From: Isoetes taiwanensis
Taxonomy: Eukaryota; Streptophyta; Lycopodiopsida; Isoetales; Isoetaceae
DNA length: 64,000 nucleotides
Assembly (NCBI GenBank): GCA_021234155.1
Contig: JAJEKV010000008.1
Location: forward strand, 17,088,006 to 17,152,005
Direction of reading: 5' to 3'
In this document: piece after piece, positions 16,871-49,645 of the stretch
Layout of the letters: every line of letters begins with the position of its first letter
How positions within the stretch are numbered: position 1 is the stretch's first letter
The notes under the pieces: model-generated
Told to the model about the DNA's origin: nothing
The model's input: the letters and a program-made list of their open reading frames with translations, nothing else
Database searches by the model: none
Translations under genes and position numbers: made by a program

Positions 16871-16880
16871 CTAGGCACAA

Positions 16881-18470
16881 TGTGACGTTCCAAGTATTTA
16901 TACGGTATACGTATAAATACATTGACACGTCACCCAGTATAGATACGCCACCATGGGGTATGGTAACCTAGGGGGTTGACCTGAAAGGGATTAAATTAGC
17001 TATCATTAAGGATAATAACCTATGAAAGCGCCACCTGGCCAAACTCGATTGGGAAAGTTTGGGAAAGCACCACTTGGCCAAACTCGATTGGCCAGCATGG
17101 GGATTAATAATTGGATCCATTAAGGTGGATCACCACCCCCATATCAACCATAATCGAACCAGTTGAGCGCCCAAGGAGCAGTTGAGCGCCCAAGGACTGT
17201 TGCTGACTTCCCCAAATCAATCAACAAACACTAGTCAGTCACGCCACCTAGTTACAAAGAATATGGAAGCACCCTCTACCATAATGGTTCCAAAATTAAA
17301 ACACGGGTTAGTAGTAGTTTAGCTTGTGAATTGTAGTATAGTACTTCAAGACTCTCTTTCTCGATTGCCTTTGTTGAGATTAACCCTTCTCCGGTAAGTA
17401 GGATTACATTTCAATTATGAATGGTGCTCTGTTAAGGAATGATTGATGTATCTATGAAGTATTTCTGGTAGCTTCCATTAAACAGGGGGTTTAAAGGGGG
17501 TAGAGACCTCTGAGCTCATATATGATAGTATGCTCCTAGATAGAGCCCCTCGTAATATTCCCATTAGATGCGGCTGCGGTACAAGAGACCACCGGGTCGT
17601 AGACGCTATGGTCCGGCTAGCACCGCAGAAGGGACACAAGTGGTGAAGTGGGGGTGGGGTCTTGCAACAACATAAAAAGGCTCCCCGAGACTCCTATAGT
17701 GGGCTAGGGCCTGATAGCCGGTCACGTAGAGGACCGGTATGGGTCCGACACTCCGGGTGTAGAGGTGTGATCCGTATGGAGCATCTTGCACTTTGAGTAG
17801 ATTTAGGGTGAGTAAGTTGGGTACGGATGCGGGTCGCTGATGCGCATGTATTCTCTAGCTCACCCATGGAACCATCGTGGATTCTAGAAGGGGACGCTTC
17901 CCCGACCTACCCCATCGACCGGGCGCCATGAACCCCGGAGTAGGCTCAAAAGGGTGATACCTTGAGTTCTGCGTCTCCTGGAGGCTATAGCGAAGCCATA
18001 GCGTGGATCGACCCATCCGCAAAGTGTGCACAGGGAGGGGCGGATGAAGTGGACAACCCTAGCCATGTTCTATGCCGGCCTAACGCCAAAGTTATACCTC
18101 TGCCTCACTGATCTCTTGAGATCGAGCCGCCGGTCCATCCTCACAGAGTCCGAACGGGGGTAGAACCCGGGGTTCATGGTGTTTTCTTAGGTTTAGATGC
18201 ATATTCTTTATCGCTGGTATTTGATGGATCGCCACCCTTCGCGGGTGGTTATTTATATATATTTAGGCCGCGGTGCTAACCCTTGTATTCATGCTTCCGC
18301 GTGTTAGGAGCCCATGGAAGTGGGCGAATGACACCTCCATGTCCTTCACTTTCGAGCATCTCTACGATGGCCCTGTCACGGAGGGGCCCCGCCTCATGGC
18401 GAGATGGTTGCCATGGGAGGGAAGTCCCGTGATGTATACCCACGGGTCGATATATTCGGGGCCGCCAGCA
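16881..18470 (+). repeat. 5' LTR of the giant Gypsy element
   Basis: 1590 bp, beginning TGTGACGTTCCAAG and ending GCCGCCAGCA. A TATA-like CATAAAAAGG occurs near 17671-17680, in the same relative place as in the other two LTR copies. The block beginning TGTGACG carries the short inverted motif ATACGGTATACGTAT (16910-16924), also visible in the left copy. Confidence 0.88.
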
Positions 18471-18486
18471 GTAGTCAGAGGCCGGA
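18471..18486 (+). other. Candidate primer binding site (initiator Met tRNA type)
   Basis: Directly after the 5' LTR the sequence reads GTAGTCAGAGGCC. This is similar to the plant Gypsy primer site TGGTATCAGAGCC but with several changes. Position supports the call; the match is imperfect. Confidence 0.45.
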
Positions 18487-19238: not shown

Positions 19239-19734
19239 ATGGCCAACACCAAGAGCACTGTGGACCCAACTACCCTCACCATAGCCGAGGTTTATGCTTT
19301 GATCGCCTGGAGATATGGCTCACGACCACCCCGCCTTCATTGACATACTTTTGGACGAGTTGGTAAACCGATTCGAGAACAACGATAGGATCCCCTATCC
19401 AATCTACCATTTCTCGGAGCCGTTCTTGGTCAGATTGAACCTTCGCCAGCTTCCTTACACCATGGCCGAACAACCTGACTTGGTCATGATGTTAATAAAG
19501 TTTTATCCTCCCGAATGTGAAGGCCACACCGAGGAGGAGGACATACGGAAGAAGGCCGACCGTATTAGAAACTTGGCCAGGGAGGATGACCAAAGGGAGA
19601 TAGAGCGAGCCGATACGGCGGCTCGAGGAAGGGAGTACCGGTATCTTGGAGATGGAGTCGCCGCTATTGATGGTCGCCATCAACTTCCCTCAGACAATGG
19701 CATGAAGCTTCCCGCAGCTTCATGTGGGGAATAA
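19239..19734 (+). pseudogene. Accessory frame A, N-terminal part (unknown domain, then charged helix)
   Basis: The ATG at 19239 opens MANTKSTVDPTT... and after about 24 codons a single frameshift leads into the long frame 19315-19734. That frame starts with a folded-looking part (DHPAFIDILLDELVNRFEN, then FSEPFLVRLNLRQLP). A strongly charged region rich in E, R, K and D follows (EEEDIRKKADRIRNLAR, then REIERADTAARGRE), likely helical. I do not recognise the domain. It probably continues, through further frameshifts, to the histone H3-like segment ending at 20489: no separate start is evident between them. The MANTKST start resembles the MARTKQT start of histone H3, which may be chance. Confidence 0.5.
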
Positions 19735-20199
19735 TCCCCGATATCAGGCCTCGATTACTTAACGACGATCCGCATTGACATGAATCGTAAGACCCGACCG
19801 ATACCATCCAACTCCTTCACGCAGTTGCAGCACAACAAGATGCATTAGGTTGAAGAAGACCTTAGAGAGCCCGTGAGTTCCTGAAGAACAGAGAGGATCC
19901 AAAGGGAGAAAGAGGAGAAGGCCCTGCAAGAGCAGCCCACCAGCCAGGGGAAGGGGATCGGGAGGGGCAGGCCCAACCCCAACAGAAAGCATACGACCGT
20001 GGAAGCACCGTGAGGAAGTTCAGAGTCCGGAAAGTCCTAATAAGACAAGGAAAAGCCGAGGGACTTCTGGGGCTTTTGGGAAGAACGCGAGCTCCAGTCG
20101 GAGGCGTGAGCGGGTGGATGCTTCCCCGTTGTTGGGGCCAAGACGGCATTCTCACGACAGAGGGGCCGCCTCTCAACCCTCGCCCCACAACCAAAACCC
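19735..20199 (+). pseudogene. Accessory frame A, basic linker
   Basis: Frames shift several times. The best reading is rich in K, R, S, G and P (KGRKRRRPCKSS, GRGRPNPNRK, NKTRKSRGTSGAFGKNASS), the composition of a disordered, DNA-binding or nuclear-localising tail. It leads without an obvious stop or start signal into the histone-like segment. Indels make the exact frame uncertain. Confidence 0.4.
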
Positions 20200-20489
20200 C
20201 ACCGGCACCGACCCCAAGATCGCCGCCCCGCCGGAGATCCGTAAGTTTCAAAGTCCACGCAACTCCGATACTAAGCTCCCCTTCGAGGTTGGTTCTGGAG
20301 ATCGCCCAAGAGTTCAAAACCGACCTCCGCTTCCATTTTTGCCATCTTGGCACTCCAAGAGGCTCATGGAGGCCTATCTGGTGGCACTCTTTGGTGATGC
20401 CAATCTTTGCGCCGATCCACGCAAAGAGGGTCACCATAATGCCTAAGGATTTAGCCCTCGCCCGCATGATTCGGGGGAAGCATCCTTAG
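20200..20489 (+). pseudogene. Histone H3-fold segment carried by the Gypsy element
   Basis: Across two to four small frameshifts, this stretch reads through histone H3 from about residue 37 to the C-terminus in the right order. Pieces are KPHRHRP (20199-20219), EIRKFQ, KLPFE, LVLEIAQEFKTDLRF (20288-20332), AILALQEA (20340-20363), EAYLVALFGDANLCA (20367-20411) and IHAKRVTIMPKDLALARMIR, ending KHP-stop at 20489. These are the alpha-N, alpha-1, alpha-2 and alpha-3 helices and both loops of the H3 histone fold. LALQEA and the MPKD loop are closer to canonical H3 or H3.3 than to CENH3, while RMIRGKHP replaces the usual RRIRGERA end. Normal H3 tail motifs around K4, K9 and K27 are not recognisable. 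It lies between 5' LTR and gag, in the same orientation. Whether it is part of the element in other copies cannot be seen here. Confidence 0.85.
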
Positions 20490-20692: not shown

Positions 20693-21283
20693 ATGACAGC
20701 CACCGACCTACTTGCATGGTACCAAGATGGAGAGCATTGGGATCCGCAAGTGCCCTTCGACCTGTTACGGCCCTTGCTATGTCAGCGCCTTGATCTCATC
20801 ACTAATATGCAGTGGCACCCAGACTATGCCGGATTCCTAGAGTTTTACACAGAGGAGATGCTTCTTTTGTGTATTCCTCTTGGGGATCCTCCCCAGTTGT
20901 ATCTAGAACGGGATGTGGTCCGGGATATGCTAGGGGGTGACACCCACGCGTATGATGTGCTGAAAGGAAAGCTTAGATGCGACAAGCACCTGCCCGTTGT
21001 GCAACATCAAGGGCGACAATATCTTGAAGTTGCCTTTGCCCTAGCCATCCTCATGGATCAATACGTTGAGGATGAGACTTTGCCGGCAGAGAAAGGAAAA
21101 CTTCCTGAATCTTCCGAGGAGGGAGAAGATGAACATATAGGTATGGGTGACTTCGCCCGTTGGAAGCAGTTGGCGAGGAGATGCCACTCACGAACAAGTC
21201 AAGACGCTTGTCGTGGGCTAGACGCCCTTCCAGTTGTGTATCACCAAGGGCAAGAATATCTTCTCTTGGATGATATCATCTGA
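20693..21283 (+). CDS. Accessory frame B, intact 196-residue protein of unknown function
   Basis: This is the longest undamaged frame in the giant element, from ATG at 20693 to TGA at 21283. The first half is hydrophobic-aromatic (LLAWYQDGEHWDPQVPFDLL, WHPDYAGFLEFY, LLLCIPLGDPPQLYLERDVV). A motif occurs twice: LPVVQHQGRQYLEVAFA (about residues 101-117) and LPVVYHQGQEYLLLDDI (about 179-195). They are separated by an acidic segment (ESSEEGEDEHIGMG). This looks like an internally duplicated small domain, not gag or pol. No signal peptide or membrane helix is evident. The frame probably once continued past 21283 (open fragments to 22060). It stays open while its neighbours are frame-shifted, which may mean later decay or chance. 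I do not recognise the family. Confidence 0.55.
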   Translation: MTATDLLAWYQDGEHWDPQVPFDLLRPLLCQRLDLITNMQWHPDYAGFLEFYTEEMLLLCIPLGDPPQLYLERDVVRDMLGGDTHAYDVLKGKLRCDKHLPVVQHQGRQYLEVAFALAILMDQYVEDETLPAEKGKLPESSEEGEDEHIGMGDFARWKQLARRCHSRTSQDACRGLDALPVVYHQGQEYLLLDDII

Positions 21284-22070
21284 CCTATCACATGATGGCC
21301 GGATTTAAGCGCCCGCGTAAGGACCATGTACTCTATGAGCTAGCGGAGTACTGTATGGATGATTTCATCGACTTCGCCCCTATTGAGCTTCCTCCTGAGG
21401 TGCGCAGCTTATCCAATTCCACCAGAGACCATAGAGCCACCGAGACTTTGCTACGGGCCGAACTGGGTGATGCGAGATCCGGCCTCTCGGCTTTCACCGG
21501 ATGCCTTTACAGCCTATGGACCTCATGTCCCAAATATTAATATGGTCGAGGTTCCCTCCAGCCTGATGAGGAGGGAGAGGATCTATACCATAATCCCGCT
21601 CACTTGAAGGAAGAGCAGCAAGAACTCAAGGGAAGAAGAAGTCCCTATGGACTTAGACAAGGAGGTGGCCACGTGAGACCCCGCAAGGGAAGGTATTGGG
21701 AAACCACCTCACCGCTTCTTCTTATCGCCTTTCGACAGGGGCAAGTTCTTTTTATAGCCCGAGATTTAGGGGCGGAGGCGAAGCTTCATGGTGGACCCTC
21801 CGTGTTTTCTTTCCACATTGGTCGGCACAAGAAGCTTCCCTATCGTGACGCTTACTTATGTACTCACGACGGGATCTTGCCCCCACGGCCTTGGACCAAG
21901 ACATTGCACCCCTGATGAGTATGAAGCTCCCATACACGCCCCCATTGGCTGCTGCCTATCCGCCGAGGTTGCTTCCATTGCGGCTGCCACAAGAGACCCA
22001 GGGGTGACTCTCCACGACACCGATCCGCCCGCCGCCACCTCCTCGCCTATGGATGAAGAGGGGGACCTAA
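21284..22070 (+). pseudogene. Continuation of accessory frame B, broken
   Basis: Short overlapping plus-strand frames (21292-21540, 21359-21607, 21604-21915, 21788-22195) can be read in series across frameshifts. One contains YLCTHDGILPP and another a proline-rich segment (KLPYTPPLAAAYPPRLLPL). Composition resembles coding sequence of the same kind as frame B. No family recognised. Confidence 0.35.
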
Positions 22071-22279
22071 TTGTATTACGATTTTGTATTATGATAGTTG
22101 TAAAATTTTGGTTTGGCATTTTCTTTAGCCATTCTATAGTTATGATATACCATCTTCTTATCAATTGTGACTATTGTATCAATGAATACAATTAAAATTG
22201 TTCTCTTCCATGATGCTTCTTCTATCTATTGGAGTTTAGGGTATAATGAAATTGTTCAATGTTCTATATTCATTTCTAT
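22071..22279 (+). other. AT-rich spacer (3'-end-like)
   Basis: TTGTATTACGATTTTGTATT and TATCAATGAATACAATTAAAA resemble plant polyadenylation regions; similar spacers occur at 20490-20692 and 22754-22990, each after an accessory frame. Confidence 0.4.
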
Positions 22280-22990: not shown

Positions 22991-23715
22991 GCTTTATACC
23001 TTTTTATGCCGGATATAGATTTGAACGAATGTGCCCGCGCGACACCCTCAAATGCCGGGAGACTAACACCAACAGAACTTATGTTAATGAAGAGACAATT
23101 AGGCGAAGTTACAAGCTTATGTGTTGCACGCCAACCCACCACAAAGATATACAAGAAGACGGACCGGAAGTTACCTCCGCTACCCCCAAGTCCACCTCCA
23201 CCACGCCAGCCTATACCGAGACCAGCCAGATTCCGCATTGAGGGGGCCCCATTCTAAACGCCATCTGAGTTCGCCTAGGGATAGTGCCACCTCCTCACAA
23301 TCAGCCCACTTCGCGGTCCTCTCGAGTCGCTTCAGATTATCCGGGTGGCCATGCAAAGCCGGACAAGGAGTACCGTAAAATGATTGACACGGGCCATTAC
23401 TAGTATATGGAAGAATAGGAACTCGCCCGCTTTGATGGAAAATCTAGAGGCGGACTGAATGCAGAGTCCTGGTTGGATGAAATGAAGGAGTTTGGAAAAT
23501 CCTATGGTATGACAGAAAAGGATATAGGAAAGGTTTCCACCACAAACCTTACAGGAGCTGCCCGTATATGGTGGAAGGGCTATGCGAGCCAAGCATCCGG
23601 ACGAAGCGTGCAAGTTCAAAAAGTTTGCCAAAGCTTTTTAAGTCGCATTATGTGCCCTGTGGCGCACAAATGCCAACAAATCCGCACCTTCTACGTTTAG
23701 AGCGGGAAAGGGTAT
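22991..23715 (+). pseudogene. gag, 5' part (capsid), interrupted
   Basis: Frames at 23006-23257 give a proline-rich N-terminal region. From 23410, FDGKSRGGLNAESWLDEM then GKVSTTNLTGAARIWWKGY match the Retrotrans_gag (PF03732) pattern F.G..aesWL followed by L.G.A..WW. The next conserved piece, LRLERER near 23692-23712, is cut off at 23715. Its continuation is found 8.85 kb downstream at 32569. Several frameshifts are present besides the insertion. Confidence 0.8.
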
Positions 23716-23924
23716 CACACTCACCCCGGTTTTTGGTCCACTGTTGAAAACATCAGTTTTGGTAGGTCTACATGTCCCGTTTTCAAAGAATCCTACATGT
23801 GGATTTGTGGAGGTATGGTTTTGTTCGATAATGGTGTTCTTTATTCAAAGAACTAAAACATCCACCTGTTGTTTTGTAAGTTTCTTCTATTGTGACATGT
23901 CATTTTATAATACAATCCAATCGT

Positions 23925-24410
23925 AGGAAAGAATACTTGAATTTCTACATGTCTAATAATTCTATTGTCACACGTCTTTATAGATGTAGGAAAGAATATT
24001 TGATTCTCTTACATGTCCTATACTTCCATTCACATGTGTCTTTATAGTAGTAGGACAGAGTACTTTATTTGCTAAGGCATTGTAGGAAAAGAATACATGA
24101 ATTACTTACATGTGTAATACTTCTATTGTCACATGTCTTTATATAAAGTAGGAAAGAATACTTGATTCTCTACATGTCAGATGCTTCCATGTCACATGTC
24201 TTTATAGTAGTAGGACGAGTACTTTTATTTGCTAAGGAATTGTAGGAAAGAATACATGAATTACGACACGTATAATACTTCTATTGTCACATGTCTTTAT
24301 AGAAGTAGGAAAGAATACTTGATTCTCTACATGTCCTATCCTTCCATATCACGGGTCTTTATAGTGGTAGGACAGTAGTACTTGATTTGCTACATGTGAT
24401 GCACGCACAC
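23925..24410 (+). repeat. Subterminal repeat array of about 62-bp units
   Basis: Units begin GTAGGAAAGAATACTTGATT and run through CTACATGTCCTATACTTCC to CACATGTCTTTATAGTA. A shorter unit of about 33 bp (GTAGGACAGAGTACTTTATT, GCTAAGG) is interspersed, giving a higher-order period of about 160 bp. Position next to the left end of the TIR element fits the transposase-binding subterminal repeats known for CACTA elements. Confidence 0.75.
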
Positions 24411-24639
24411 GATCACATGTCCTTCCATGCAAGACAAGTCACTTCAACTACTTCAATTACTTAACGCCTATTTTTGCATAATAAAACCATCAAGAATTTG
24501 ATTTGTATTCCTTGACTGGTGCGACCGACCCAAATAAATCCATAAGCATTAATGTCATAGGACCAATGCGAAAATCCTAACAATATCCTAACATCATCAA
24601 GTCCATGTCCATGTCATTCATATCTTGCCTTGGTCATTC
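24411..24639. other. Spacer in the TIR element, nothing recognised
   Basis: Unique-looking sequence between the subterminal repeats and the first minisatellite array. Confidence 0.4.
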
Positions 24640-25525
24640 ATGCGCTGGAGCCTACGTGGCATGTTGAAGCCTTGCGGCATGTTGGAGCCGTGGGTGGCTT
24701 GTTGGAGCCCCAGGTGTCATGTTAGAGCTCACGTGGCATGTTGGAGCCCAGTGGCATGTTGCGACCTACATGGCATGTTGGAGCTGATGGTGGCATATTT
24801 GAGCCACGCTGGCATGCTTGAGCCTAGGGTGGCACGCTGGAGCCAACTTGGCATGTTGGAGCCTATGTGGCATGTTGGAGCCCGTGGCATGTTGGAGCCT
24901 AGGTGGCATGCTAGGGCATGTTGGAGCCTATGTGGCATGTTGAAGCCTTGGTGGCATGTTGGAGCCTAGGTGGCATATTTGAGCCACCTTGGCGTGCTTG
25001 AGCCTAGGTGGCACGCTGGAGCCAACTTAGCATGTTGGAGCTCACATGGCATGTTGGAGCCCGTGTGGCATGTTGGAGCCTAGGTGGCATGTTGGAGCCT
25101 AGGTGGCATGCTAGGGTGGCATGTTGGAGCCTACGTGGCATGTTGGAGCATAGGTGGCATGTTGGAGCCTACGTGGCATGTTGGAGCCCACGTGGCGATG
25201 CATGTTTGAGCCACCCTTGGCACGCTTGAGCCTAGGTGGCAGGGTTGGAGCCACCTTGGCATGTTGGAGCCCAGGTGGCATGTTGGAGCCTAGGTGGCAC
25301 ATTGGAGCCTAGGTGGCATGCTAGAGCTCACGAGGCATGTTGGAGCCTAGTTGGCATGTTGGAGCCTACGTGGCATGTTGGAGCCTAGGTGGCATGTTGG
25401 AGCCTAGGTGGCATGATTGAGCCACCTTGGCATGCTTGAGCCTAGGTGGCACGTTGGAGCCAACTTGGCATGTTGGAGCTCACGGGCATGTTGGAGCCTG
25501 TGGCATGTTATAGCCTAGGTGGCCG
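24640..25525 (+). repeat. 19-bp minisatellite array 1
   Basis: Dozens of copies of a 19-bp unit with consensus GGCATGTTGGAGCCTAGGT, with frequent variants (GCCCACGT, GCCACCTT, TTTGAGCC). Because 19 is not a multiple of three, all reading frames show repeated MLEPRWHVG-like peptides on the plus strand; these are translation artefacts. The same unit in the same orientation makes array 2 at 27935-28705. Confidence 0.92.
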
Positions 25526-25529
25526 GACC

Positions 25530-27700
25530 CAAAGAGACGGACATCACAAAGGTTACCGAGGCAGCTTTCCTACGGTTAACTCCTCCCGGAGGGCAAATGC
25601 CAATGCCTCCCTTCCGGAACCCGCCTCCTATCCGACCGTTGAATTCTCCATTCGTAACTTTCTTCGAAAGGTGCTCAAAAATTCAAGATCCAGAACATAT
25701 CAAAATCATAAAGTGTCCTGCAATCGTACGATCGTAGAAACCCAAGTGTTTTGTCGCTTGGGCAGTATAAAGGCTTTAATGGAGATTTGACTTCGCCATA
25801 TCGCGCCCAAAACAAATAAAATTACCCTAGGGACCAAGTTACACGGGTCATTTTTGCAAAGAAAAGAAACACGAACCCTCTACATGGCAAGATTCGCACC
25901 CTCCACTAAATTCACTACGAACGCAGTTGGACATGAGCTACTTTGGCGCTTCCGAGAGCAGGGGTGGTCTTCGCCCACCTAAAATTGGTCTCCGTGGTAA
26001 TGTCGATGTTTTGAGTCCGCTTAAGCGAGTCGATCACGCCCGAGGTGGGACAGCTTGGTTCGTCCGTCCGGCCAAGGACCCTCCGGATAGGACCTTTGGG
26101 ACGAACTTTTCCTCGAAGGTTTTAGGGCTCGCTTCTCAAGGCCAACGCCCTCCCACTACCTCATGACATTGTGCAAGATCCCGGGTCCAACTGGGCTTAG
26201 AGAGGACCTTTTGGGGCAAACCGCTTTAGGAAGGTTTAAGGGTCCATCTTCGGTGTCCACACACCCCTCCCTTTATATGATGACGTCAGATCTTGGCCGT
26301 CGACTAGGATATGGCCTCCAAAACGAAAACCCCGTGTGTTGCTAGGTTATTGAAGGGTTTACATTATGGAGGTCGAGTTTTAGTCGGTTGCATTTGGGAC
26401 ATGGTCCGTTTGCTGAAAACGCCGCGAAATAGGAACTGATGGAATGAGGTTTGGATTTATCCTCCTCCCAAAGTGTGGCAATTTGAAGTCAAGAGCCTTT
26501 TGCAAGAGGCAAAATTGTTTGGGATCATTCGGGATGGCCAATAGATCCAAACTTTGTTATTTTAGTTGCTATGGCTCCTCATGCATGTTTAGAAAAGGTG
26601 CACCTAGTTTTCAAAACGACCATCGCGTTTTCAAACGTAAACCCTATGTGTTGCTAGGTTATTGTAGGGTTTACATTTCGGAGGTCAAAACATGGTCGCT
26701 TTTCCCGGATAACTAGGTGCACCTTTTCTAGACATGCATGCGAGCCATAGCAAATCGAAATAACAGAGTTTGGATCTATTGGCCATCCCGAATGATCCCA
26801 AACAATTTTGCTAATGCAAAAGGCGCCTTGACTTCCAATTGCCACACCGAGGAGGATAAATCCAAACCCCATTCTCGCCAGCCCTATTGCTTACGCTTAT
26901 CGCAGCTTTTCGGACCATGTCCCAAATGCAACCGATTAAAACTCGACTCTCCATAACGTAAACCCTTCAATAACCTAGCAACACACAGATTTACGCTTTG
27001 GAGGCCATATCCTAGTCGACGGGCCAGATCTTGCGTAATGTCATCATATAAAGGAGGGTGTTGACGCCGTAAGATGGACCCTAAAGGCCCTCGCCACGGA
27101 CGCAACTCTCCCACCGAATTGTGAATTGACTCGCCAATGGACTCAAACGACGACATTACTCTAGGGACCAAGTTTCAGGGCGTGACCACCCCTTCCCAAG
27201 AAGCCAAAATAGCTCATGTCCAACACGTTCGTAGTCAATTGGCCAAAGAGGTGGCTGCAGAATACTGCCATGTAGAGGGTTCGTCTTTCTTTCGTTGCTA
27301 AAAATGACTGTGTAACTTAATCCCTAGGGTAATTTCATCATTTCGGACGACATGGCGAAGTCAGATCTCCATTCCGGAGCCTTTGTACTGCCCGAACAAC
27401 AAAACACTTGGGTTTCTCCACGGTCGACCGCAAGACGCTTCGCGGTTTGATAAGTTCCACCGGATGGATCTGGAATTTTTTTGAACCTGCTCGAAGCAGG
27501 TTACTTGAACGGCAGATTCAATGGTTGGATAGGGAAACTGAGCTTTGGGAGGGGGGTCATTGGCATTTGCGCTCCCAGAGGAGCGCTGGTAGGAAAGGTT
27601 GCATCGACAACCTTTCTGAAGTCTGTCTCATGGAGTGTGGCCTCTCCCCTCTAGTGAGGAAGCGCGCAAAGTCCTGGCCTGGTTCGATTTGGGGAAGGGT
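25530..27700. repeat. Large palindrome (arms about 25530-26640 and 26700-27700)
   Basis: The right arm is the reverse complement of the left. For example, AAGAGCCTTTTGCAAGAGGC at 26492 faces the inverted copy at about 26815; GGCCAATAGATCCAAACT at 26536 faces AGTTTGGATCTATTGGCC at about 26767; the CTAGGGACCAAGTT block at 25830 recurs directly at 27160. Outer parts match through the CCCAAGTGTTTTG block (25741 and inverted about 27402). The arms differ by substitutions and by deletions of up to about 200 bp. The centre lies near 26660-26700. Transcripts would form a hairpin of roughly 1 kb. No coding frame is convincing in either arm. Confidence 0.8.
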
Positions 27701-27934
27701 GTCAGCGCTTTAGTTCTTCAAGATCCCTCTATTTTATCCCTTGCCAAACCTGTCCACAAAAAATTCCAAAGGTTATCATAGTTCTTGCATAAAGTCCTAG
27801 TCATCATGTCCACATCATCACCATCTAGCCATGTCACCCAACATTTGCCAACATCACCCAATGAAAAGACCAAAGATGGACATCTTTTCATTTTTAGCCT
27901 AGTCAAAACTTGGCCTTGCTTACTTGGCATGCCA
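27701..27934. other. Spacer between palindrome and second minisatellite
   Basis: No feature recognised. Confidence 0.3.
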
Positions 27935-28705
27935 TGTCACCATGGAGTGCCTAGGTGGCCTAGGTGGCATGCCTGAGCCACCTTGACATGTTGGAGCCTA
28001 TGTGGCATGTTGGAGCCTAGGTGGCATGTTTGAGCCACCTTGGCGCGGTTGGAGCCCTAGGGTAGCATGTTTGAGCCACCTTGGCATGTTTGAGCCGAGG
28101 TGGCATGTTGAGCCCACGGGGCATGTTTGAGCCACCTAGTATATTTGGAGCCACCTTGGCATGTTGGAGCCTAGGTGGCATGTTAGAGCCCACATGGCAT
28201 GTTTGGTCCACCTTGGCATTTAAAAGCCTAGGTGGCATGTTTAGGCCCCGGACTTTCAAAATGCTTAACTAGCAGCTTCTGGATTTCCACCACGCCCCTC
28301 AAAGATCCCCATAGATCTATGACACACAACAAATTTGATAACCGCAGCGTTCGCTTGTGGAATCACCGAAAAGGAAAAATTGTGGTTTTACAAAGAAACT
28401 TCTATCGCCAAGATGTGGAATCTGGCCTTTAGAGCCATCTTGTCATGTTTGAGCCACCTTGGCATGTTAAAGCCTAGGTGGCATGTTGGAGCCCACATGG
28501 CATGTTTTATCCACCTTGGCATGCTGGAGCCACCTTGGCATTTCAGAGCCTAGGTGGGATGTTTGAGACACCTTGGCATGTTGGAGCCCACATGGCATGT
28601 TGGAGCCTAGGTGGCATGGTGAATCCCACGTGGCATGTTTGAGCCACCTTGGCATGTTGGAGCCTAGGTGGCATGTTGGAGCCAACCAGGTGGCATGATG
28701 GATCC
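27935..28705 (+). repeat. 19-bp minisatellite array 2
   Basis: Same unit (GGCATGTTGGAGCCTAGGT and variants such as GGCATGTTTGAGCCACCTT), interrupted at about 28258-28435 by unrelated sequence. It has the same orientation as array 1, so the palindrome is bracketed by direct, not inverted, arrays. Confidence 0.9.
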
Positions 28706-30139
28706 TCGGGGTACAACATTTGAACCATAACAAATAACGTATGAGATCAATCAAACCTGAAAAACAGAGGTTTAACAAAATTTTGATAGTCGGGTGCTTT
28801 TCTTTGGTTTCCCAATACTTAAAAAACGACTTATTTTTTATGGCTTACAATATAAGGAGAGTCAATCCTGTAAGAAATTGTCATGTTATAACTATGGTTG
28901 GACATGTATCATACACAGGTTGACTACAAAAAAGTTGTGGCAACAACATTTAATCAGGTTAAGCTAAGGTTGAGCTAACCTAAGTATTATCTAAGTAGTG
29001 CTTGAAGCACGTTTGAAATTGCATATAAGGCAATGGTTAATAAACCATTGGGCATACTTAGAAGATCGTTATAAGAACGACACCTTATATGTATGAAGGG
29101 GGAAATATGATTTGATGAGCTTGGCAGACGATGTTGTAATGATGAGCAAAGGTTGCGATCGTAAGACCTATATATTATACAGGGATCTAAGGTTGCACAG
29201 ATATGAAGGTGCAGAGACATGTGAACCTGATACTTAACCTAGGTTGCAGAAGGTGAATTATTATTGTGCATAGGGTCAGAATTCCCTAAGGTCGAAATAA
29301 GGAAACCTAAGGCGTATGGTTAATGGTTCGATAAAAAACCAATGGTTAACCAATGATATATTTGGCGGTCAAATGTCAAGCTTAAAAAATGCTAGCAAGT
29401 GACCAAGTTAGAAATGAGAAGCTTGAGGCGAATCCGGTGACGGATCAAAGTTGGATCTGGTTAATAAACTAAGTATAAGAAGGATTGTATTAGAGTGACA
29501 TCTTAACCGTGAAAAATAGTGCCGGATCCATAAGTTTATGGATGCCGTATCTGTCGGGTTAAGATAGCTTATTCTAATGAATTCGATTCATAAAATATTG
29601 CTACAAAGGCCCAAATATTGTATTTCAATGGTTTAAGGTTTTCATTTGCACTAAAGTTGTAATAAACTTTGTGTAAGATGTGATAAGAATTGAGGAAAGG
29701 AAATTGGATATTGATTGATCTATTTCTAACCAAATTCTATCAAATCCTTCTTAGAAATCACGACTGCTTTTTTTATCCGGTACTTTGATCACAAATTGCT
29801 TTCTAGCTTCATCTTTAATCAGATATTTTGTATTTATGCAATCAGAATTATTATTTTCGTTTTTCTTCTAGTCTAAGTGACTTCGACCCTCGGACGTTAA
29901 GGTCGATAATATCCCCGCGTAATGGCTCAAAAATGGCCTAGTGGCCATGTGGCTAGGAAAGTCCGAGGCATTGTGACGCTATCTAGCCCATATGCTAGAA
30001 AGCCTCAACGTTGTCATTTGTGAAGTTTAAAAAAAATAGGCATTATAAATTTGTATCACATCCAACCGCGAGATGAGTGGCTAAGATTATGATCCAAGTC
30101 ATTGGATCCTATTGGCCCATATTAACGACTGAGATTAAC
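28706..30139. other. AT-rich interior of the TIR element, no gene
   Basis: No frame longer than about 75 codons and no recognised motif. The composition (many TTAAG/AACC alternations) resembles LTR or untranslated sequence, but no terminal repeats were found. Confidence 0.4.
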
Positions 30140-30670
30140 TAGCCAGATTTGATCCGTGCCCTCCAATTTTTGCCGCTTTTATCTCCCTCCTTTTGTTCCT
30201 TGGCTTTTCGATCGGACGTGGGTTCACCCTCCTCCTCCCATGCCTCTCGACCATGCTCCTCCGCCATGCTCTTCTTGGGCGCTTTCCTTCCTTGCTTCGT
30301 TTCCTTCCGATGGCATACGATATCAAGGAGGAAAACGCCTCTACCGATGCATACGATATGGCATACGATATTAGATATTGGAAGGAAGGCCAAGTATTCG
30401 AAGGCCGTTTTTTCCTTGACAAGACATCATCATCTGTATGGCCTTCTTGCGGGGACATCTCTCATGCTCCCCTTTGCTTCTGCGATTCTCTCCAAAGTGG
30501 CCCTTGATTGCACCTCCTGCTCTCTTCCGATCCAATCTTCTTAGCAGCATTTTCTTCAAATCGCAAGCATTTTCTTCAAATCGCAGGTCGCACCATTCTC
30601 TTCAGTCACCTATATCAGTTGGATCTGCCTGAGTTGGATCTGCCCAGCTTCTTTTCTTTCATAATTGTTA
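30140..30670. other. GC-richer gene-like segment, possibly captured host sequence
   Basis: Several overlapping frames exist on both strands (for example plus 30149-30544, minus 30135-30458, the latter very basic). A short GCATACGATAT motif occurs three times near 30313-30372, and GCATTTTCTTCAAATCGCA is repeated in tandem at about 30548-30588. No family recognised. Capture of host gene pieces is common in CACTA-type elements, but nothing here proves it. Confidence 0.3.
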
Positions 30671-31739
30671 TGAGAATAGGTAATTTGACAGGTGAGAATT
30701 TATGCATTTTTTATTACATGTTAATAACTTATCAATGATGTCTAAGATGCAATTGATTTTCGTATGCCAGATACAATGATCATCTCCAACATGCCAGATA
30801 CAGGATCATCTCCAACAACCTTTTCAGCACTCAGGCTACTCTGCTACTCTGCTACACATCTACTCAAGCACTCATGCTACTCTGCTACACATCTACTCAT
30901 GTCAGCCTCGATAATCCACAAGCCTCTTCTTGTCATAGCAGATATCCTCTGCTAACCTTGATATTGCAGAGATCAAAAGCTTTTGGTTGTGCAACGGGCT
31001 GCATCTGATCTTTCAAAACTTCTTATGGTACAACAAAAACCTCTTCTGGTACAATGACGAACAAAATATCTTTCCACTATTTTTTATTTATTCCATATTT
31101 TGCTTTTGCTTCCCTGAATAACTATTTACAGGTTTATCTGCGTTTGCAGCCTTGTACTAGCAAGAAGAGAGAGATCATTGGACAATGCTTGTAAATCTTG
31201 TGACAAGAAAAAGTCGCAAGGCTCACATCTCGGCCTTCTTTTTGTAAAGATAGTAGTACAAATCTCTACTTCCTCGCTTTTTGAAGAATAGTACGATGTT
31301 GCAAGCCTTGTTTATTTGGTAAGTATTTGTGTTTTGCAAAAGATGTAAGATCTTTTGATCAAAAGGGATGGTAGCTTATGATTTTCCTACTTTTAGCCTT
31401 TGTTCTTGGCAATGTTGTAGCAATATATTCTAAATATCATTGTTTTCTTTGTACCATTGATGTCCAGTATAATTTTCTCTCCGAGCAAAGATTAAAATAT
31501 CAGAAAACAAGAATGTAAAATCTTGTTTCAAAAAAGAATGGCAACAATTAAGTTGTATTTTTTAAATCAAATGCATTTAAATAAATGCAAACCACCAAAT
31601 AAAAAAAAAACAACCATTATATAAGAGCTATGCACAACCTTAATAAAAAATAATATCTAAAAATAACAATACACTTTTTCAACATGTATTTCATTGGAAA
31701 AACACGTCCTCTCTTAGAAAAACACCTACCCAAAGACTA
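30671..31739. other. AT-rich interior; small tandem duplication near 30838-30905
   Basis: A block of about 40 bp ending CTCTGCTACACATCTACTCA is duplicated. Otherwise no supported feature. Confidence 0.4.
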
Positions 31740-32300
31740 GGAAAAACTGCCATATGACAAGATTTGATTAGTTAAAAAGATGTCCACGTGTAAAGGAGTG
31801 CCACGTGTCAAGATTTGATTGGCTAAAAAAGATGTCGACGTGTAAACCAAACGTGTTGTTTTTGTAAACTTAAAAAAAGTCCATAGATATTTTATGTTGA
31901 TTTTTTTGCAAAAACAATACTTGGAAATAACTAATTTAAGAAATAACGTGTCTATTTTTAATAGCTACATATAATATTGAGGAAAAACAATGTTCGAAAT
32001 AGCAATTATTTTAAATGCTACATGTGGATTTCTTTAAACACTACGTGCTTTCCCTAAGAAAACAATGACAACTTTTAAAAACTACAAGTAGAGGAAAAAA
32101 ACAAAACGCATAGAAAAAGAGAAAAAGATATGTCTTTTTCCCTAAGAAAACAATGACAGCTTTTAAAAACTACAAGTAGAGGAGAAAAACAAAATGCATA
32201 GAAAAAGAGAAAAAGATCTGTCTTTTTTATTTCTTCATCATGTAGTAATAATGTCGTGAATCTACGCTGTGTAGTTTTCAAAAAACAATGCATAACTTCT
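31740..32300 (+). repeat. Right subterminal repeats of the TIR element
   Basis: Two kinds of short tandem repeats are present. AAGATTTGATTAGTTAAAAA / AAGATTTGATTGGCTAAAAA units carry CACGTGTAAA (31758-31850). Two 85-bp units share ACTTTTAAAAACTACAAGTA, GCATAGAAAAAGAGAAAAAG and TGTCTTTTT (about 32067-32150 and 32153-32230). Position mirrors the left subterminal array. Confidence 0.65.
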
Positions 32301-32568
32301 TAAAAACAACAAAGGACAAAAAAAAAAAACCACATGTAGAAAAAAAAAATAAAAAAACAATAGTGAAAAAAAAGGACACGCTGACAAAAACAAAAAGTCT
32401 GGAAAAACCACGTGAGGGATGTTTTGCCAAAAACCACCGCCTCTTTGTGCAAATCCGGATAAACGGGCCACGTGGACTTTTGGGGCCCATTTTGGTGTTG
32501 TTTTTGGCATAAAACAACACTTCCGCATAACTAAAAACAACTGCGGACCAAAAATTGGGGTCGCAGTG

Positions 32569-33300
32569 TATGCCTGTTCAGGCATACACCGATGAATTTA
32601 TGCGCTTTAAGGTCGTATGTTCCCAGATGAATGAAAAGAGGGCAAAGGAGGGTTACATTGAAGGGTTGGCCCCATCAATTAAAACGAATGGTTAAGGCCA
32701 TAGACCAAATCGGGCTTTGTGTGAGGCCGAGGCTAAGGCATTGAGCCCTCAAGAGGACACACCAAGGAACCAAAGATCCGGCCCCGCTTCCTTACTCACA
32801 CAGCCCAATGGCCGCCCACACCTTACAAACCCCCGGCCAAGTCCGCGGCCCTCTCCAGAACTCTTATGGTCACGAAAAGAAAGTCACCTTCAAAGATGCC
32901 GTATAAAACGTAACAATGTCGGTAAGGAAGTTCTAACCTCTTACATTTCTATTCCCAAAGAGGTTCGAGAGCAGCTCCGCCAAGATAAGGCATGCTACAG
33001 TGTATGCGGCCCGCACTTCATGCATTGTCCTTATGTCACGCAGACGCCTACCGGCCATGGCCCGACCTCGACCGACGATCTTGAGTCAACACTACCTTCC
33101 GAGGAGGAGGCTCCCGAAAGTATATTCACGATGCGCCTCATATCCTTGCAAAACAGAAACCGGTAATGCCGAAGTCACCACTTGTCATTTCCACCATAGG
33201 TCAAGTAGATGAAGCCTTTTGTAATTTTATGGAAACGGAAGTTACCTTCAACGCAGCCTAACGGAGCCTCGCTGGACTATAAAAGGTCAACCATTCAACC
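32569..33300 (+). pseudogene. gag, 3' part, and protease region
   Basis: Reading resumes with VQAYTDEFMRF and KRAKEGYIEGLAPSI, the well-conserved end of plant Gypsy gag after LLxLxQG. A stop falls shortly after. Downstream frames (32717-33166) hold a basic, proline-rich segment. The region around 33150-33260 precedes RT and should hold the protease, but no DSGA-type motif is readable. Confidence 0.7.
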
Positions 33301-34240
33301 CTATTATATAGTCTATGTCCACCGTGCAGCTTAGATAAAGCTATAATGCAAGGAAAAGCTCCTCTCAGATCATTAGACTTGCCTCCATTGAGTCGGATGC
33401 TAAAATGTAAAGTAATCGATACCTTGCCGAGGGGATTGCCGATCTTCTCCGAGAATTTGGTGATCTTTTTCCCGATGAGATCCGCTTCCTCCTTTTAGAG
33501 GGGTAGGATGTGAAATAGCTTTAGAGCCCTAAGTACTAAGCCTACCAAAGAAGGCCCCGCATCGTGATGAGTCCCCCAGAGTTGGCGCAGAGCTTAAGAA
33601 GCAACTTCGGGAGTTACTAAACCTAGGTTTCATTCGACCTAGTGTTTCAAAATTTGGCCCCTATTCTTTTTTTGTTAAGAAAAAGGATGGCTCCTTGAGG
33701 ATGTGTATTGATTATCGGCAACTCAACAAGCATACCATCAAGAATCGCTATGCTTTGCCTAGAGCGGATGACCTAATGGACCAGATTGTAAGGGGCCAAA
33801 TATTTCAAAGATTGATTTACGCCCCGGATACCATCGATAAGGATTAAAGAGGAGGACATCCATAAATCTGCTTTCCGCGACTAGATATGGGCATTATGAG
33901 TTTACCGCTATGCCTTTTGAATTAACTAATGCCCCAAAGAACTTTCATGCGATTGATGAATGATGTCTTCCACAATACTTGGATGATTTTGTTGTTATTT
34001 TCTTTGACGACATTCTCATCTATAGTAAGACCCTAGAGGAGCATGAGAAAGATCTTAGATTGGCCCTACAAAAAGCTAAGACGCCATCGCCTCTTTGCCA
34101 AGTTCTCAAAGCTTAAGTTTGCCACTCAAGGTCGATTATTTGGGCCATGTCATTTCGGGCAGAGGGAATTGCTACATCCGCAAAGATAGAGGCCGTGGGG
34201 AATGGCCTATTCCAGAAACGCTTCAAGTCCAAGTTTCTTG
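33301..34240 (+). pseudogene. Gypsy reverse transcriptase
   Basis: 33590-33790 reads [40 protein letters not shown] and [16 protein letters not shown], the conserved fingers-palm start of Ty3/Gypsy RT. 33890-34080 reads RYGHYEFTAMPF, FVVIFFDDILIYSKTLEEHE (with the catalytic DD), then HRLFAKFSK. At least five frameshifts and stops separate these pieces, so it is inactive. Confidence 0.88.
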
Positions 34241-34990
34241 GGATTAGCAGACATTATCTAAATTTGTAAAGGATTTTGCAAAGATTGGCGCACCTCTTAC
34301 AAATCTTACAAAGCATGAGAAAGTGAAGGATTGGATGGAACACCGGAAGGCAAAAAGTTCGTGGGAGTTTCCAACAGCAAAGATGCCTTTAACATCAGCA
34401 CTAGTTCTCACATTGCCCGATCCCGAAGGATATAGTGGCAACGGATGCCGCGAAGATTGCCACCTGTGGAGTCCTAATGCAGGAGGGGAGGGTTATTGCC
34501 TATGATTCCAAGAAAATGAACGAGACGGAGCAGTTGATACCCTACCCATGATCGTGAATTGTTAGCCGTTGTCCGCGTCTCCGCTGGATATGGAGACACT
34601 ACCTTCTTGGTAGAAGATTCCAGCTTGGATACGGATTATCAAAGCCTCCGTTATTTATCCACCCAAAATTAATCTCAACCTCCGCCGAGGAGATGGATGG
34701 AATTCTTGGAGGAGTATGATTTTGAGATTATGTATAAACCTGGAAAGCACAATGTGGTTGCGGATGCGTTGTCACGCCATCCCTTGGTAATCCGAACCCA
34801 TTGTAATGCAATTTTTACACTCACCAGTGAGTTTGGGAAGCGAGATAGAATGCACCTTTGGCCACGATTCCGAAGTTCCGTGATGTTTGGGATAGTTTGG
34901 CTAAGGAAGCTCGCGACAGATAAGGAGCAGAAGCCCTTCGCTCAGATAAGAAAGAGGGCAACTTGTTATATTACAAAGATAAGTTGTGTA
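34241..34990 (+). pseudogene. Gypsy RNase H and tether
   Basis: PLTNLTKHEKVKDW is followed by RNase H pieces (ALVLTLPDPEG, ATDAAK with the catalytic D, GVLMQEGRVIAYDSKKMNE). Then come the DRELLAVV region, [19 protein letters not shown] and ADALSRHP, the usual end of Gypsy RNase H. Frames change several times. The spacer after 34800 matches the variable linker before integrase. Confidence 0.85.
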
Positions 34991-36050
34991 CCTGAGACTT
35001 GAGTCCGTAAGCTCATTCTCCATGACACGCATTAAAACAGCTCTATAGCCGACACGCAGGTTTTATGAAGACCTACTTCAAGATTCGCTCACCCACTTAC
35101 TCGCCTTCTATGAAAAAGGACATTGCCGCCGTACATTAAGCAAAGTCGGAACCAAAGCCGAAAGCGCTTAAGGATTCCGTAGCGAAGCGTAACCTCCGGA
35201 TGTGCCCAACGCTAAGTGGGAAGTGGTAACCATGGATTTCATTGTGGGCCTTCCACGCTCTCCGCGGATATGATGCGTTATCGGTAGTGGTCCACAAATT
35301 GTCGAAAATGGCTCATTTCTTGCCATGTCGTACCCCGGACCGCGCCCTCGATATTGCTCGCTATTTGCCAAGGAGATCTTCGATTACACTAATGCCACGA
35401 AGTTATTATATCCGATATAGGGATCCCAAATTAATAAGTGCATTCTCGAGAGATTTCTTTGCCACCATCCGCACCAAGCTTGTTATGAGTACGCATATCA
35501 TCCTCAAACAGATGGTCGACAGAGCGCACCAATCGCATTATAGAGGATATGCTACGGTTATGTGTGGGAGTAAGCAATCACAATGGGTGACTATATTTAT
35601 CCGTCGAGTTTGCCTACAACAAAGATGAAACAGAGTCTTCCACAATGTCTCCCTTTATGATAAATTATGGTTACCAATGTCTTACTCGCATTACATGGCA
35701 TAACCCCGCTTCTAAAGTCGAGGTTTCTCAATAACTCCTCTTGGAGATGCAAGCTCGGGTCAAGAAGTTCGTGGTTACTTGTTACGCACGCAAATGTCGT
35801 GGAGAGTGTAGCCGATAAGCAATGTAACCCCACGCGTTTTCCGTGGGTGAATCCGGCCAGGCTTAAGATTAAGGTAAAACAAGCCAAGCTTAAGATTGGC
35901 AACCGCAAGAAGTTGGCACCCGATACTGGGCCGCTCAAAATTATTGAACGTGTTGAGAGCAGCATATCGCTTGATTTGCCACCCCGCTTGAAGATCCACA
36001 AGGTCTTTCACGTGAGTCTTCTCAAACAACACACCCCGATCCGGTGAGGA
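34991..36050 (+). pseudogene. Gypsy integrase
   Basis: GFMKTYFKIRS near 35060 is the zinc-binding region. The core includes VTMDFIVGLPRS (35228-35260, first catalytic D), YDALSVVVHKLSKMAHFLPC, DRDPK (near 35421, second D in one frame), FFATIRTKLVMST and the TDG region with an E downstream. The C-terminal part reads GPLKIIERVESSISLDLPP and IHKVFHVSLLKQHT. The DDE residues can each be found but in different frames. Confidence 0.87.
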
Positions 36051-36290
36051 GGTTTTGGATACCCCAACCCTCCTAGAAATGACAGAGGAGCAGCCGAGAT
36101 AGTGCCCTAAGCTCTTCTTGATCGGCTTATAAACAAACCGTAAGGACTCAAATGTTGCAATACTTGGTTATGGGGAAGCACTTACCGCTTGAGGATGCTA
36201 CTTGGGTGATGAAGATAGACCTTGAGAAGCACTATCCGCACTTCATGCGGGAATCTCAAGGTCGCACCATCAACGATGCTATCAACCCCG
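36051..36290 (+). pseudogene. Chromodomain-like pol C-terminus, copy 2
   Basis: Homologous base by base to positions 1-200 of the window (EALLDRAYKQTRR-like and QYLV-KW segments), with extra stops. Marks the end of pol. Confidence 0.7.
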
Positions 36291-36926
36291 GCTGCAGAAG
36301 ATTGGAAGCTTGATTGCCAAGGGTAGTGCTCTAGAGGGGTAGATGCATTGTAAACAATAATAGTTACCGGCGATGAGATCACCTTTGTGTTCTCTAGGAC
36401 GGGTGTAATCACAATGTTGACCTGACCACGACTTGCTTGGAGAGCATATAGTTATAGGCGCGCTTCATCTCGCTACAATGGGAACTTTGCCATTCCCTAT
36501 GCTGCAATGAATTGCAAACCATAGACATGATAGGTTCCCCGGTAGATAGAGTTTTCTTTTATTTATTATAAGGGGTGGTCCCTTCAACCACAATCTAATT
36601 ATACATACCGATATATTGACATGTGCGGGCCGCTGAGCGCATGCGACTCCGCCCATGTTAGGAGGGTTGATGATGACCCGACTTCTTCAGCTTTTGTTTT
36701 GTCTACACGCCTTGTTATGTTGTTACTCGATGTTGATACTCCCGTCCTTGAACTTTAATTATGATAATCATGTGAAATGCACCTCTGCTTAAGCCGCTCT
36801 AAACTTTAAAGTTTTAATATATATTACCTTCTGAAATAAGGAATTACCTTCCTTCATAATATCATGTCCTATTTTTTGGTATCTAACCTTAATGCCGAGG
36901 ACAAAGATTAATTCTAGGAGGGAGAA
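36291..36926 (+). other. 3' untranslated region and polypurine tract of the Gypsy element
   Basis: Noncoding, alignable with 217-865. Ends in the purine-rich tract TAGGAGGGAGAA directly before the LTR. Confidence 0.7.
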
Positions 36927-38451
36927 TGTGACGCTTCCAAGTATTTATACTTTGATATGTATAAATACATTGACACGCCACCCAAGATAGATATCACCAC
37001 CATGGGGTATGGTAACCTAGGGGTTGACCTAAAAGGGATTAAATTAGCTATGGTAATTTAATCATTAAGATAATAACCTATGATTAAGGAAATTAATAAT
37101 TAAGAAGGATAATTAAGCCAATTATGGTTTGGGAAAGCGCCACCGCCAAACTCGATTGGCGGCATGGGGATTACTAATTGATCCATTAAGGTGGATCACC
37201 ACCCCCATATCAACCATAATCGAACCAATTGAGCCTAAGGAGCGATTGGAGCCTCAAGGACTCAAGTTTACTTCCCAAATCAACCGAACAACCACTACAC
37301 ATCGCGCCACCTAGTTACAAAGAATATGGAAGCACCCCACGATAATGGTTCCAAATCAAACATGGGTTAGTAGTAGTTTAGCTTGTGAATTGTAGTATAG
37401 TACTTCAAGACTCTCTTTTCGATTGCCTTTGTTGGGATTAACCCTTCTCCGGTAAGTAGGATTACATTTCAATTATGAATGGTGCTCATAAGGAATGATT
37501 GATGTATCTATGAAGTATTTCGTAGCTTCCATTAAACAGTGGATTTAAAGGGGGTAGAGACCTCTCGAGCTCATATATGATAGTATGCCCCTAGATAGAG
37601 CCCCCTCGTAATATTCCCATTAGATGCGGCCTCGTACAAGACCGGTCAGACGCTATGGTCCGCTAGCACCGTAGAAGGGACACAAGGTGAAGTGGGGTGG
37701 GGTCTTGCACCAACATAAAAGGCTCCCGAGACTCCTACAAAGGGGCTAGGGTTCGATAGCCTGGCCACGAGGACCGGTATGGGTCCGACACTCCCGGGGT
37801 GTAGAGGTGTGATCCAGATGGAGCATCTTGCACTTTGAGTAGATTTAGGGTGAGTAAGTTGGGTACGGATGCTGGGTCGCTGATGCGCACGATTCTCTAG
37901 CTCACCCATGGAACCACTGCGGATTCTAGAAGGGGACGCTTCCCCACCTCGCCTCATCGGACCGGGCGCCATGAACCCCGGAGTAGGCTCAAAAGGGTGA
38001 TACCTTGAGTCCAAGCTTTCCTAAGGCTATAGCGGCCATAGCGGATCGACTCCATCCGCAAAGTGTGCACAGTGAGGGGCGATGGAGTGGACAACTCTAG
38101 CCGATGTTCTATGCCAGCCAACGCCAAAGTTATACCTCCTCCGCTGATCTCTTGAGATCGAGCCCAGTCCCATCCTCACAGAGTCTCGAATCCTGGTAGA
38201 ACCCGGGGTTCGGGTGTTTTCTTAGGTTTAGATGCATATTCTTTGGCCGCTGGTATTTGATGGATGCGCCACCCTTCGTGGGTGGTTATTTGTATATATT
38301 TAGGTCGTGTGCTAACCCTTGTATTCATGCTCACACGTAGGAGCCCATCGGCGGGCGTAATGACACCTCCTCCGTCCTTCACTGAGCATCTCTACGATGG
38401 CCCGGCCGACGGAGGGCCCCGCCATGGCGTCAGATATATCAGGGAGCCACA
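36927..38451 (+). repeat. 3' LTR of the giant Gypsy element
   Basis: Begins TGTGACGCTTCCAAG and ends GGGAGCCACA; 1525 bp. Followed directly by the target duplication CACAA (38452-38456). It is shorter than the 5' LTR because of many small deletions and lacks part of the block before the end (about 38425-38435). Confidence 0.88.
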
Positions 38452-46165: not shown

Positions 46166-46370
46166 TGTTAAATATCAGCAGCGACATGCAGAACCAAAAT
46201 ACTCAGAGTGCAGAGAAAGGTTGTTTGTTTTACTGATTAGAAACTGATACATCCAAAGTTCCATGATAATAGGAGCACCGCATGGAGCTCCTAATAGAAT
46301 AGCACACCTTGCTAATTCTGGCATGTATCTACGTAAGGTATATTTTGCTAACATTATACCATTGTCAACA
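46166..46370 (-). repeat. 3' LTR of the Copia element
   Basis: 205 bp, TG..CA ends on either strand, 204 of 205 positions identical to the right LTR by eye. Confidence 0.9.
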
Positions 46371-46624
46371 TTCCCCCTCAAAATATACCTGATCTATCAG
46401 AGTTTCAGCAAAATTAAATCACTATCTAATTTTTACTTTTCACATGAATAGGATGAAAAACAACTAACTAGAACAAAAGGAACTTCCGTCAATAGATTGG
46501 AAATATCTTCCAATCAAAATCAGAATGCCTTCAGAGATGCAACTTCTTCAACTTCAATAAGGCTCCAAACCAAATTTATGCTTCAGTCTTCTTTGCACTC
46601 CTGCAACATTCCTTGCACAAAACT

Positions 46625-49380: not shown

Positions 49381-49440
49381 CAAGGGCAGATCTGTTACAC
49401 TCTCTGTGAATTTGTCCTCAGAGTCGATGCTTTGACACCA

Positions 49441-49645
49441 TGTTAAATATCAGCAGCGACATGCAGAACCAAAATACTTAGAGTGCAGAGAAAGGTTGTT
49501 TGTTTTACTGATTAGAAACTGATACATCCAAAGTTCCATGATAATAGGAGCACCGCATGGAGCTCCTAATAGAATAGCACACCTTGCTAATTCTGGCATG
49601 TATCTACGTAAGGTATATTTTGCTAACATTATACCATTGTCAACA
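49441..49645 (-). repeat. 5' LTR of the Copia element
   Basis: 205 bp, one visible difference from the other LTR (ATACTTAGAG versus ATACTCAGAG). Confidence 0.9.

Follow-up and report, generated by a model that had tools for sequence, protein, structure and literature searches.

A histone H3 fold joined to a novel domain in the first long open reading frame of an Isoetes taiwanensis chromovirus

A decayed chromovirus in the window

The window analysed here is a 64,000-nucleotide stretch of Isoetes taiwanensis DNA (assembly GCA_021234155.1, contig JAJEKV010000008.1, positions 17,088,006 to 17,152,005 of the forward strand). It contains a decayed Ty3/Gypsy element of chromovirus type (Table 1), whose LTR pair is aligned by self-BLAST at 16873–18401 versus 36919–38429 with 86% identity; the K2P distance is 0.148 over 1529 columns, with the poorly aligned outer end counted in. 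Directly after the 5′ LTR, copies L009, L010, and L020 read TGGTATCAGAGC, and L027 is one base off, as judged by eye; we take TGGTATCAGAGCCG at this place to be a primer-binding site of the initiator tRNA-Met type.

Table 1. Features of the element copy in the window, numbered from the first letter of the window
Feature	Position	Strand	Basis
5′ LTR	16881..18469	+	begins TGTGACG...; self-BLAST
Probable decayed primer-binding site	18470..18486	+	by eye; L009, L010, and L020 read TGGTATCAGAGCCG at the site
ORF1, broken in the window copy: novel N-terminal domain, charged helix, basic linker, histone H3 fold	19239..20489	+	sequence, tblastn
H3 fold with frameshifts; begins near H3 residue 37 and runs through to the C-terminal end and stop codon	20194..20489	+	tblastn, Pfam
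ORF2, second accessory ORF, broken in the window copy	20693..22080	+	438–455 aa in L016, L023, and L027
gag start, cut by the nested insertion	23381..23715	+	PF03732, E 0.034 in the window and E 2e-16 in L011
Nested insertion, 8.85 kb, with 19-bp minisatellite arrays	23716..32564	.	copy comparison; apparent 7-bp duplication
Remaining gag-pol, fragmented	32565..36121	+	SH3_Tf2-1 detectable in the window copy
Chromodomain remnant, C-terminal end of the integrase	36122..36310	+	PF00385, E 0.0031, below the curated cut-off
3′ LTR, outer end diverged or lost	36925..38430	+	self-BLAST, copy comparison

Three of the four copies compared (L009, L018, and L020) align across the nested insertion with a 7-bp overlap, which is what a target duplication would give. 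Without this insertion the window copy measures about 12.7 kb and is therefore long, not giant. The initial annotation had described a giant Gypsy retrotransposon; the LTRs and gag-pol domains sustain the assignment to Gypsy, but the length comes mainly from the 8.85-kb insertion at 23716–32564, so that giant size is not a property of the family. The minisatellite arrays inside the insertion occupy 24646–25523 and 27958–28706, and a large palindrome (0.85 kb, 81% identical to its own reverse complement) lies at 26235–27085.

An H3 sequence was used as a tblastn query against the window and matched at 20286–20480 (E 5e-12) and, in another frame, at 20213–20413 (E 0.002), with only two further matches in the window, both at E above 6. 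The H3 reading opens at 20194 with KPHRHRP, and its stop codon is 20487–20489. With the Pfam Histone profile PF00125, one broken window frame reaches E 1.4e-5 and 25.8 bits, just under the curated cut-off of 26.4, and the unbroken natural copy L028 gives E 1.9e-40. These tblastn and profile matches confirm the H3 fold that had been read between the 5′ LTR and gag, and the two frames of the tblastn matches agree with the frameshifts proposed for it.

ORF2 ranks with the best conserved stretches of the element's DNA, copies being mostly 90–95% identical to the window copy; its frame in L023 has no Pfam match at E 0.1. In the window, SH3_Tf2-1 (PF24626) is found at 35664–36044 with E 8.2e-10, and the pol fragments at 32696–33163, 33533–33844, 34248–34502, and 35230–35625 have no Pfam match at E 0.1. 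Natural copies yield Pfam matches to gag, CCHC, RVP_2, RVT_1, RNaseH, INT, and SH3_Tf2-1, and the LTRs with the order gag-PR-RT-RNaseH-INT are present as pieced together from several copies, no single one having it in full.

A chromodomain above the cut-off (PF00385, E 6.3e-8) ends the open frame of L061, which lies downstream of L044 and belongs to a group-B element (see below); the chromodomain is C-terminal to INT. By eye, its cage positions read I, W, and L, the first and third aromatic residues being missing, and the element chromodomain would accordingly appear to be of type II. The type II-cage chromodomain of L061 (398–2536) is found in an element that also carries H3. The distance from H3 to RT is about 2.5 kb near L044 versus about 4.6 kb in L009, and because of this shorter distance ORF2 and its spacer may be missing near L044.

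Elsewhere in the window, positions 1–2402 hold the 3′ part and LTR of another family copy (77–79% identical to the main copy), and a Glycosyltransferase family 61-like host gene is located on the minus strand at 39480–41149. The Copia-type element (RVT_2) at 46166–49645 is probably young, since its 205-bp direct repeats are 99.5% identical. Possible LINE-like endonuclease and RT fragments were noted at 53124–54940 by eye only.

ORF1 and its family in the genome

The assembly searched comprises 1,658,258,908 bases in 1110 contigs, and Gypsy elements make up 10.7% of it (PMC8566536, in part); the word histone was not found in the text of this genome paper. Among the 40 scored of 1212 first-look candidates, the window H3 DNA has 39 other matches at 85–88% identity, and 20 of these 39, with 10 kb taken around each, are referred to here as the DNA-chosen copies. 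All 20 have the N-terminal part of ORF1, and within the 10 kb all 20 have ORF2, whole or as a piece, 16 an upstream LTR, and 15 gag. The order of parts is that of the window, apart from copies with rearrangements or interruptions, L014, L016, and L017 among them. Because this first set had been picked by H3, copies were also picked via ORF2: H3 lies upstream in 39 of 40 ORF2 matches, the window being among the 40. Of the 39, 23 adjoin a listed H3 match, and 16 of the 17 other ORF2 matches carry H3 at an equal distance upstream. Relatives thus hold the H3 segment at a matching place, and the condition named in the initial annotation as refuting its reading, a private later insertion, does not apply.

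Two motifs of the element's own H3, AILALQEA and ALFGDANLCA, have 906 and 721 exact matches in the genome, respectively, and the controls have none each. An H3 protein search, with 150 scored of 9022 candidates, gave 15 canonical H3 genes and 135 others at 71–86% identity; 129 of the 135 are without an internal stop, and 48 of these 129 lie in open frames of at least 400 aa. The element with the fused ORF1 is common in the Isoetes taiwanensis genome, and the fusion is family-wide and often unbroken.

ORF1 is one open frame of 417–421 aa, stop to stop, in L014, L027, and L028 (3 of the 20 DNA-chosen copies), and an unbroken frame of 407–453 aa in 19 of the 20 copies picked because their frames are long, the latter lengths being counted from a start codon picked by the analyst. 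An N-terminal domain of about 165 aa is followed by a long charged helix, a basic linker, and 100 H3 residues from about residue 36. The canonical H3 tail with K4, K9, and K27 is missing in 17 natural ORF1s, where a different linker and domain stand upstream of about residue 36; the unknown domain and basic linker originally described for the window copy are thereby seen in its relatives as well. Three groups of ORF1 can be distinguished (the main group, group B with L043–L045, and L048), which are about 30% identical once H3 is left out.

For the N-terminal domain, the databases searched gave no relative, and no match in structure libraries was convincing; AlphaFold gives a mean pLDDT of 81.7 for the N-terminal 236 residues. 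The H3 part modelled without H4 is of low confidence (pLDDT about 39–52). As judged from its sequence, the C-terminal part is a histone fold of H3-specific type. The best PDB sequence match for residues 308–419 of L040 is H3.3 (E 2.5e-53), and Foldseek ranks an H3 chain from a nucleosome first (85% identity, E 1.6e-5), a match that rests on sequence because the TM-scores are only 0.08–0.22. In seven copies, the fold differs from host H3 at 12–17 positions, i.e., it is 83–88% identical. CENH3 has a longer loop 1 and a strongly diverged fold. A CENH3 identity was considered and rejected: in 22 copies the fold is 100 residues long and has no insertion relative to host H3, and the differences in the seven copies are as few as given above.

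Selection, capture, and the histone surface

The H3 fold of the element is under strong purifying selection. Over 153 pairs of 18 main-group ORF1s, dN/dS has a median of 0.029 in the H3 fold versus 0.114 in the N-terminal part, in a set biased low because the copies were chosen by H3 similarity or an open frame; in the 20 DNA-chosen copies, the difference rates at codon positions 1, 2, and 3 are 0.032, 0.018, and 0.087. A less biased set of 16 ORF2-chosen copies, which includes dead ones, several of them with stops or indels, gives a pN/pS of 0.14 and codon-position differences of 0.057, 0.036, and 0.191; the signal of selection is weaker in this set, yet the fold is still constrained.

Between the element H3 and the host H3 genes, pS is about 0.93, synonymous sites being saturated. 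The capture is therefore old, and gene conversion by host genes does not account for the conservation of H3. V89I, T107A, and I124L are common to 22 unbroken element H3s and absent from nine host genes, and in an H3 tree the host rows fall on one side of a branch at 98/95, its bootstrap not being settled. An old and probably single capture made H3 the C-terminal portion of the first long ORF. The family-wide fused frame supports the earlier proposal that a host-type H3 had been captured in fusion with a unique domain; on balance, and as part of the best explanation as a whole, we suspect a host H3 of the H3.3 type.

Across 22 element ORF1s and nine host H3s, 65 of the 100 fold positions are identical, among them K56, R69, R72, R83, H113, K115, T118, and D123. 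These invariant residues presumably include contacts to DNA, H4, and the other H3. The chaperone site (residues 87–90) reads FAIL in 20 of the 22 element H3s and HAIL in L048. F87, present in 21 of 22, is unlike the host H3.1-like and H3.3 genes; H87 is kept by L048 and by L057, the sole H3.3-like gene among the nine host genes. In Arabidopsis, H87 confers the assembly specificity of H3.3, deposition of H3.3 in ddm1 mutants blocks DNA methylation of heterochromatin, DDM1 promotes the swap of heterochromatic H3.3 for H3.1, and T80V has been proposed to make the variant MGH3 resistant to DDM1 (PMC10529913, in part). Three of six viral single H3s have TAIL or SAIL at the chaperone site, and all six are considered probable partners of host histones in nucleosomes (PMC9145170, in part). 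T80 and D81, which are DDM1 contacts, are unaltered in the element H3, which therefore does not copy MGH3.

Possible role and relation to known systems

Host silencing of retrotransposons works largely through H3 and its tail. The intact ORF1 protein probably helps the element deal with plant chromatin, and this role would probably be directed against silencing. We lean towards an explanation in which ORF1, through its captured H3.3-type fold, pairs with H4, enters nucleosomes, and anchors its N-terminal module on chromatin. The element would make the ORF1 protein, whose H3 fold would pair with host H4; H3–H4 chaperones would load it into nucleosomes, and the N-terminal module, replacing the H3 tail, would thereby be held on chromatin. 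More speculatively, ORF1 could serve as a placeholder H3, deposited on transcribed DNA of the element itself. Nucleosomes of this kind would be without H3 residues 4, 9, and 27 as methylation sites and would resemble H3.3, which opposes re-silencing. An H3.3-like histone made by the element would have an obvious use, because H3.3 blocks heterochromatin methylation until the DDM1-promoted swap for H3.1.

The family-wide position of H3 (upstream in 39 of the 40 ORF2 matches), the two motifs with 906 and 721 exact matches, the 129 of 135 stop-free non-canonical H3s, the dN/dS of 0.029 and pN/pS of 0.14, and the 65 fold positions shared with host H3 all argue for the nucleosomal role; H87 in L048 points to H3.3, and FAIL/HAIL is comparable to the viral TAIL/SAIL (PMC9145170, in part). 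On the other hand, F87 in 21 of 22 copies could alter chaperone use, the T80V of MGH3 is absent, nucleosome assembly may be hindered by the roughly 310–350 residues that precede the fold, the H3 part modelled without H4 has a pLDDT of about 39–52, and the dN/dS sample is biased low, the less biased set being weaker (0.14) but constrained. Alternatively, ORF1 nucleosomes, or chaperone-bound ORF1, might bring the pre-integration complex to chosen chromatin in cooperation with the chromodomain integrase, the histone being a landing address and not a shield. The same element type does carry a chromodomain (in L061 and as a weak remnant in the window), apparently of type II, for which no partner has been identified according to PMC6317226 (in part). 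However, other type II chromoviruses manage without a known histone, and tethering seems rather unlikely to us.

We are more doubtful that the H3 fold and basic linker have no task beyond condensing or importing cDNA in the particle or pre-integration complex: both could bind DNA, and ORF1 sits upstream of gag, but H3 by itself is not known to wrap DNA, no other histone was found in the element ORFs scanned, and general DNA binding would hardly preserve the host H3 residue at 65 of 100 positions. Retention of much of the fold with an altered site 87–90 would suit a decoy that titrates host H3–H4 chaperones or H4 and weakens silencing globally without deposition; it would need high protein levels, and it has no need of the DNA-contacting residues, several of which are nevertheless kept. 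A decoy is improbable in our opinion. A functionless host fragment amplified along with the element, as in transduplication, would have a parallel in fungi, where transposons have amplified H3 and hundreds of copies are RIP-inactivated in P. fijiensis (PMC6710886, in part), and the window copy itself is dead. Such passive capture is contradicted by the dN/dS of 0.03, the pN/pS of 0.14, the third-position excess, and the open frames in diverged subfamilies, and its version with host H3 gene conversion by the pS of about 0.93; we give it very little credence. The window copy taken alone could look like a private later insertion of an H3 retrocopy, an idea refuted by the 39 of 40 ORF2 matches with H3 upstream, the window included, and scarcely worth retaining.

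As a long shot, the nucleosomal role could extend to an element that writes its own chromatin address: tail-swapped nucleosomes would keep transcribed copies open, the type II chromodomain would read ORF1 chromatin and not methylated H3, and new copies would land there. If ORF1 does act in nucleosomes, a long-kept, element-borne H3 without a tail would be a direct counter to host silencing and a natural experiment on what the H3 fold does without its tail. The element also makes the ligand of type II chromodomains a testable question.

Taken singly, the components have precedents: chromoviruses, Gypsy elements with extra ORFs, histones of viruses, and H3 amplified by transposons. None of the literature matches listed describes a retrotransposon ORF in which a selected H3 fold is fused to an unknown domain, and a search for the word histone gave nothing in PMC7264820 and PMC11963269, which deal with additional ORFs of plant LTR elements; as far as the matches listed show, a histone under selection would be new to retrotransposons. 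Plant chromoviruses (Tcn1, Galadriel, and SM-Diluvium and SM-Cranky of Selaginella) share with it the LTRs, the order gag-CCHC-PR-RT-RNaseH-INT, and a C-terminal chromodomain, and SM1-Galahad has a primer-binding site of the tRNA-Met type. However, the Selaginella elements are about 4.9–7.5 kb long with gag-pol, the two short extra ORFs of SM1-Galahad lie downstream, and the available parts of PMC2864245 and PMC3350952 describe neither a histone nor an ORF upstream of gag. An AlkB-type m6A demethylase ORF in Phalaenopsis Gypsy elements is likewise a host-derived functional domain fixed as an extra ORF, but it is an RNA demethylase of orchids and not a histone (PMC9289625, in part). Arabidopsis MGH3/HTR10 is an H3.3-type variant relevant to transposon silencing, yet it is a host gene with 12 changes including T80V (PMC10529913, in part), whereas the Isoetes element H3 keeps T80 and is without a tail.

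Single viral histones include the H4 of bracovirus and the H3 of xenomavirus, Dishui Lake phycodnavirus, and Sylvanvirus. These are also host-derived single histones and are expected to work in host nucleosomes; the H3s have 73–87% fold identity, some have extended or divergent tails, and three have V89I-type chaperone sites (TAIL, SAIL) (PMC9145170, in part). They belong to DNA viruses, whereas the Isoetes case is an LTR retrotransposon in which an unrelated folded domain takes the place of the tail and of which a single genome contains several diverged subfamilies. In fungi, a host H3 has similarly been multiplied by a transposon, but by a hAT DNA transposon, with copies RIP-inactivated in P. 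fijiensis and tens of copies, many potentially active, in Pyrenophora (PMC6710886, in part); the Isoetes H3, in contrast, is part of a fused ORF in an LTR element and is under selection.
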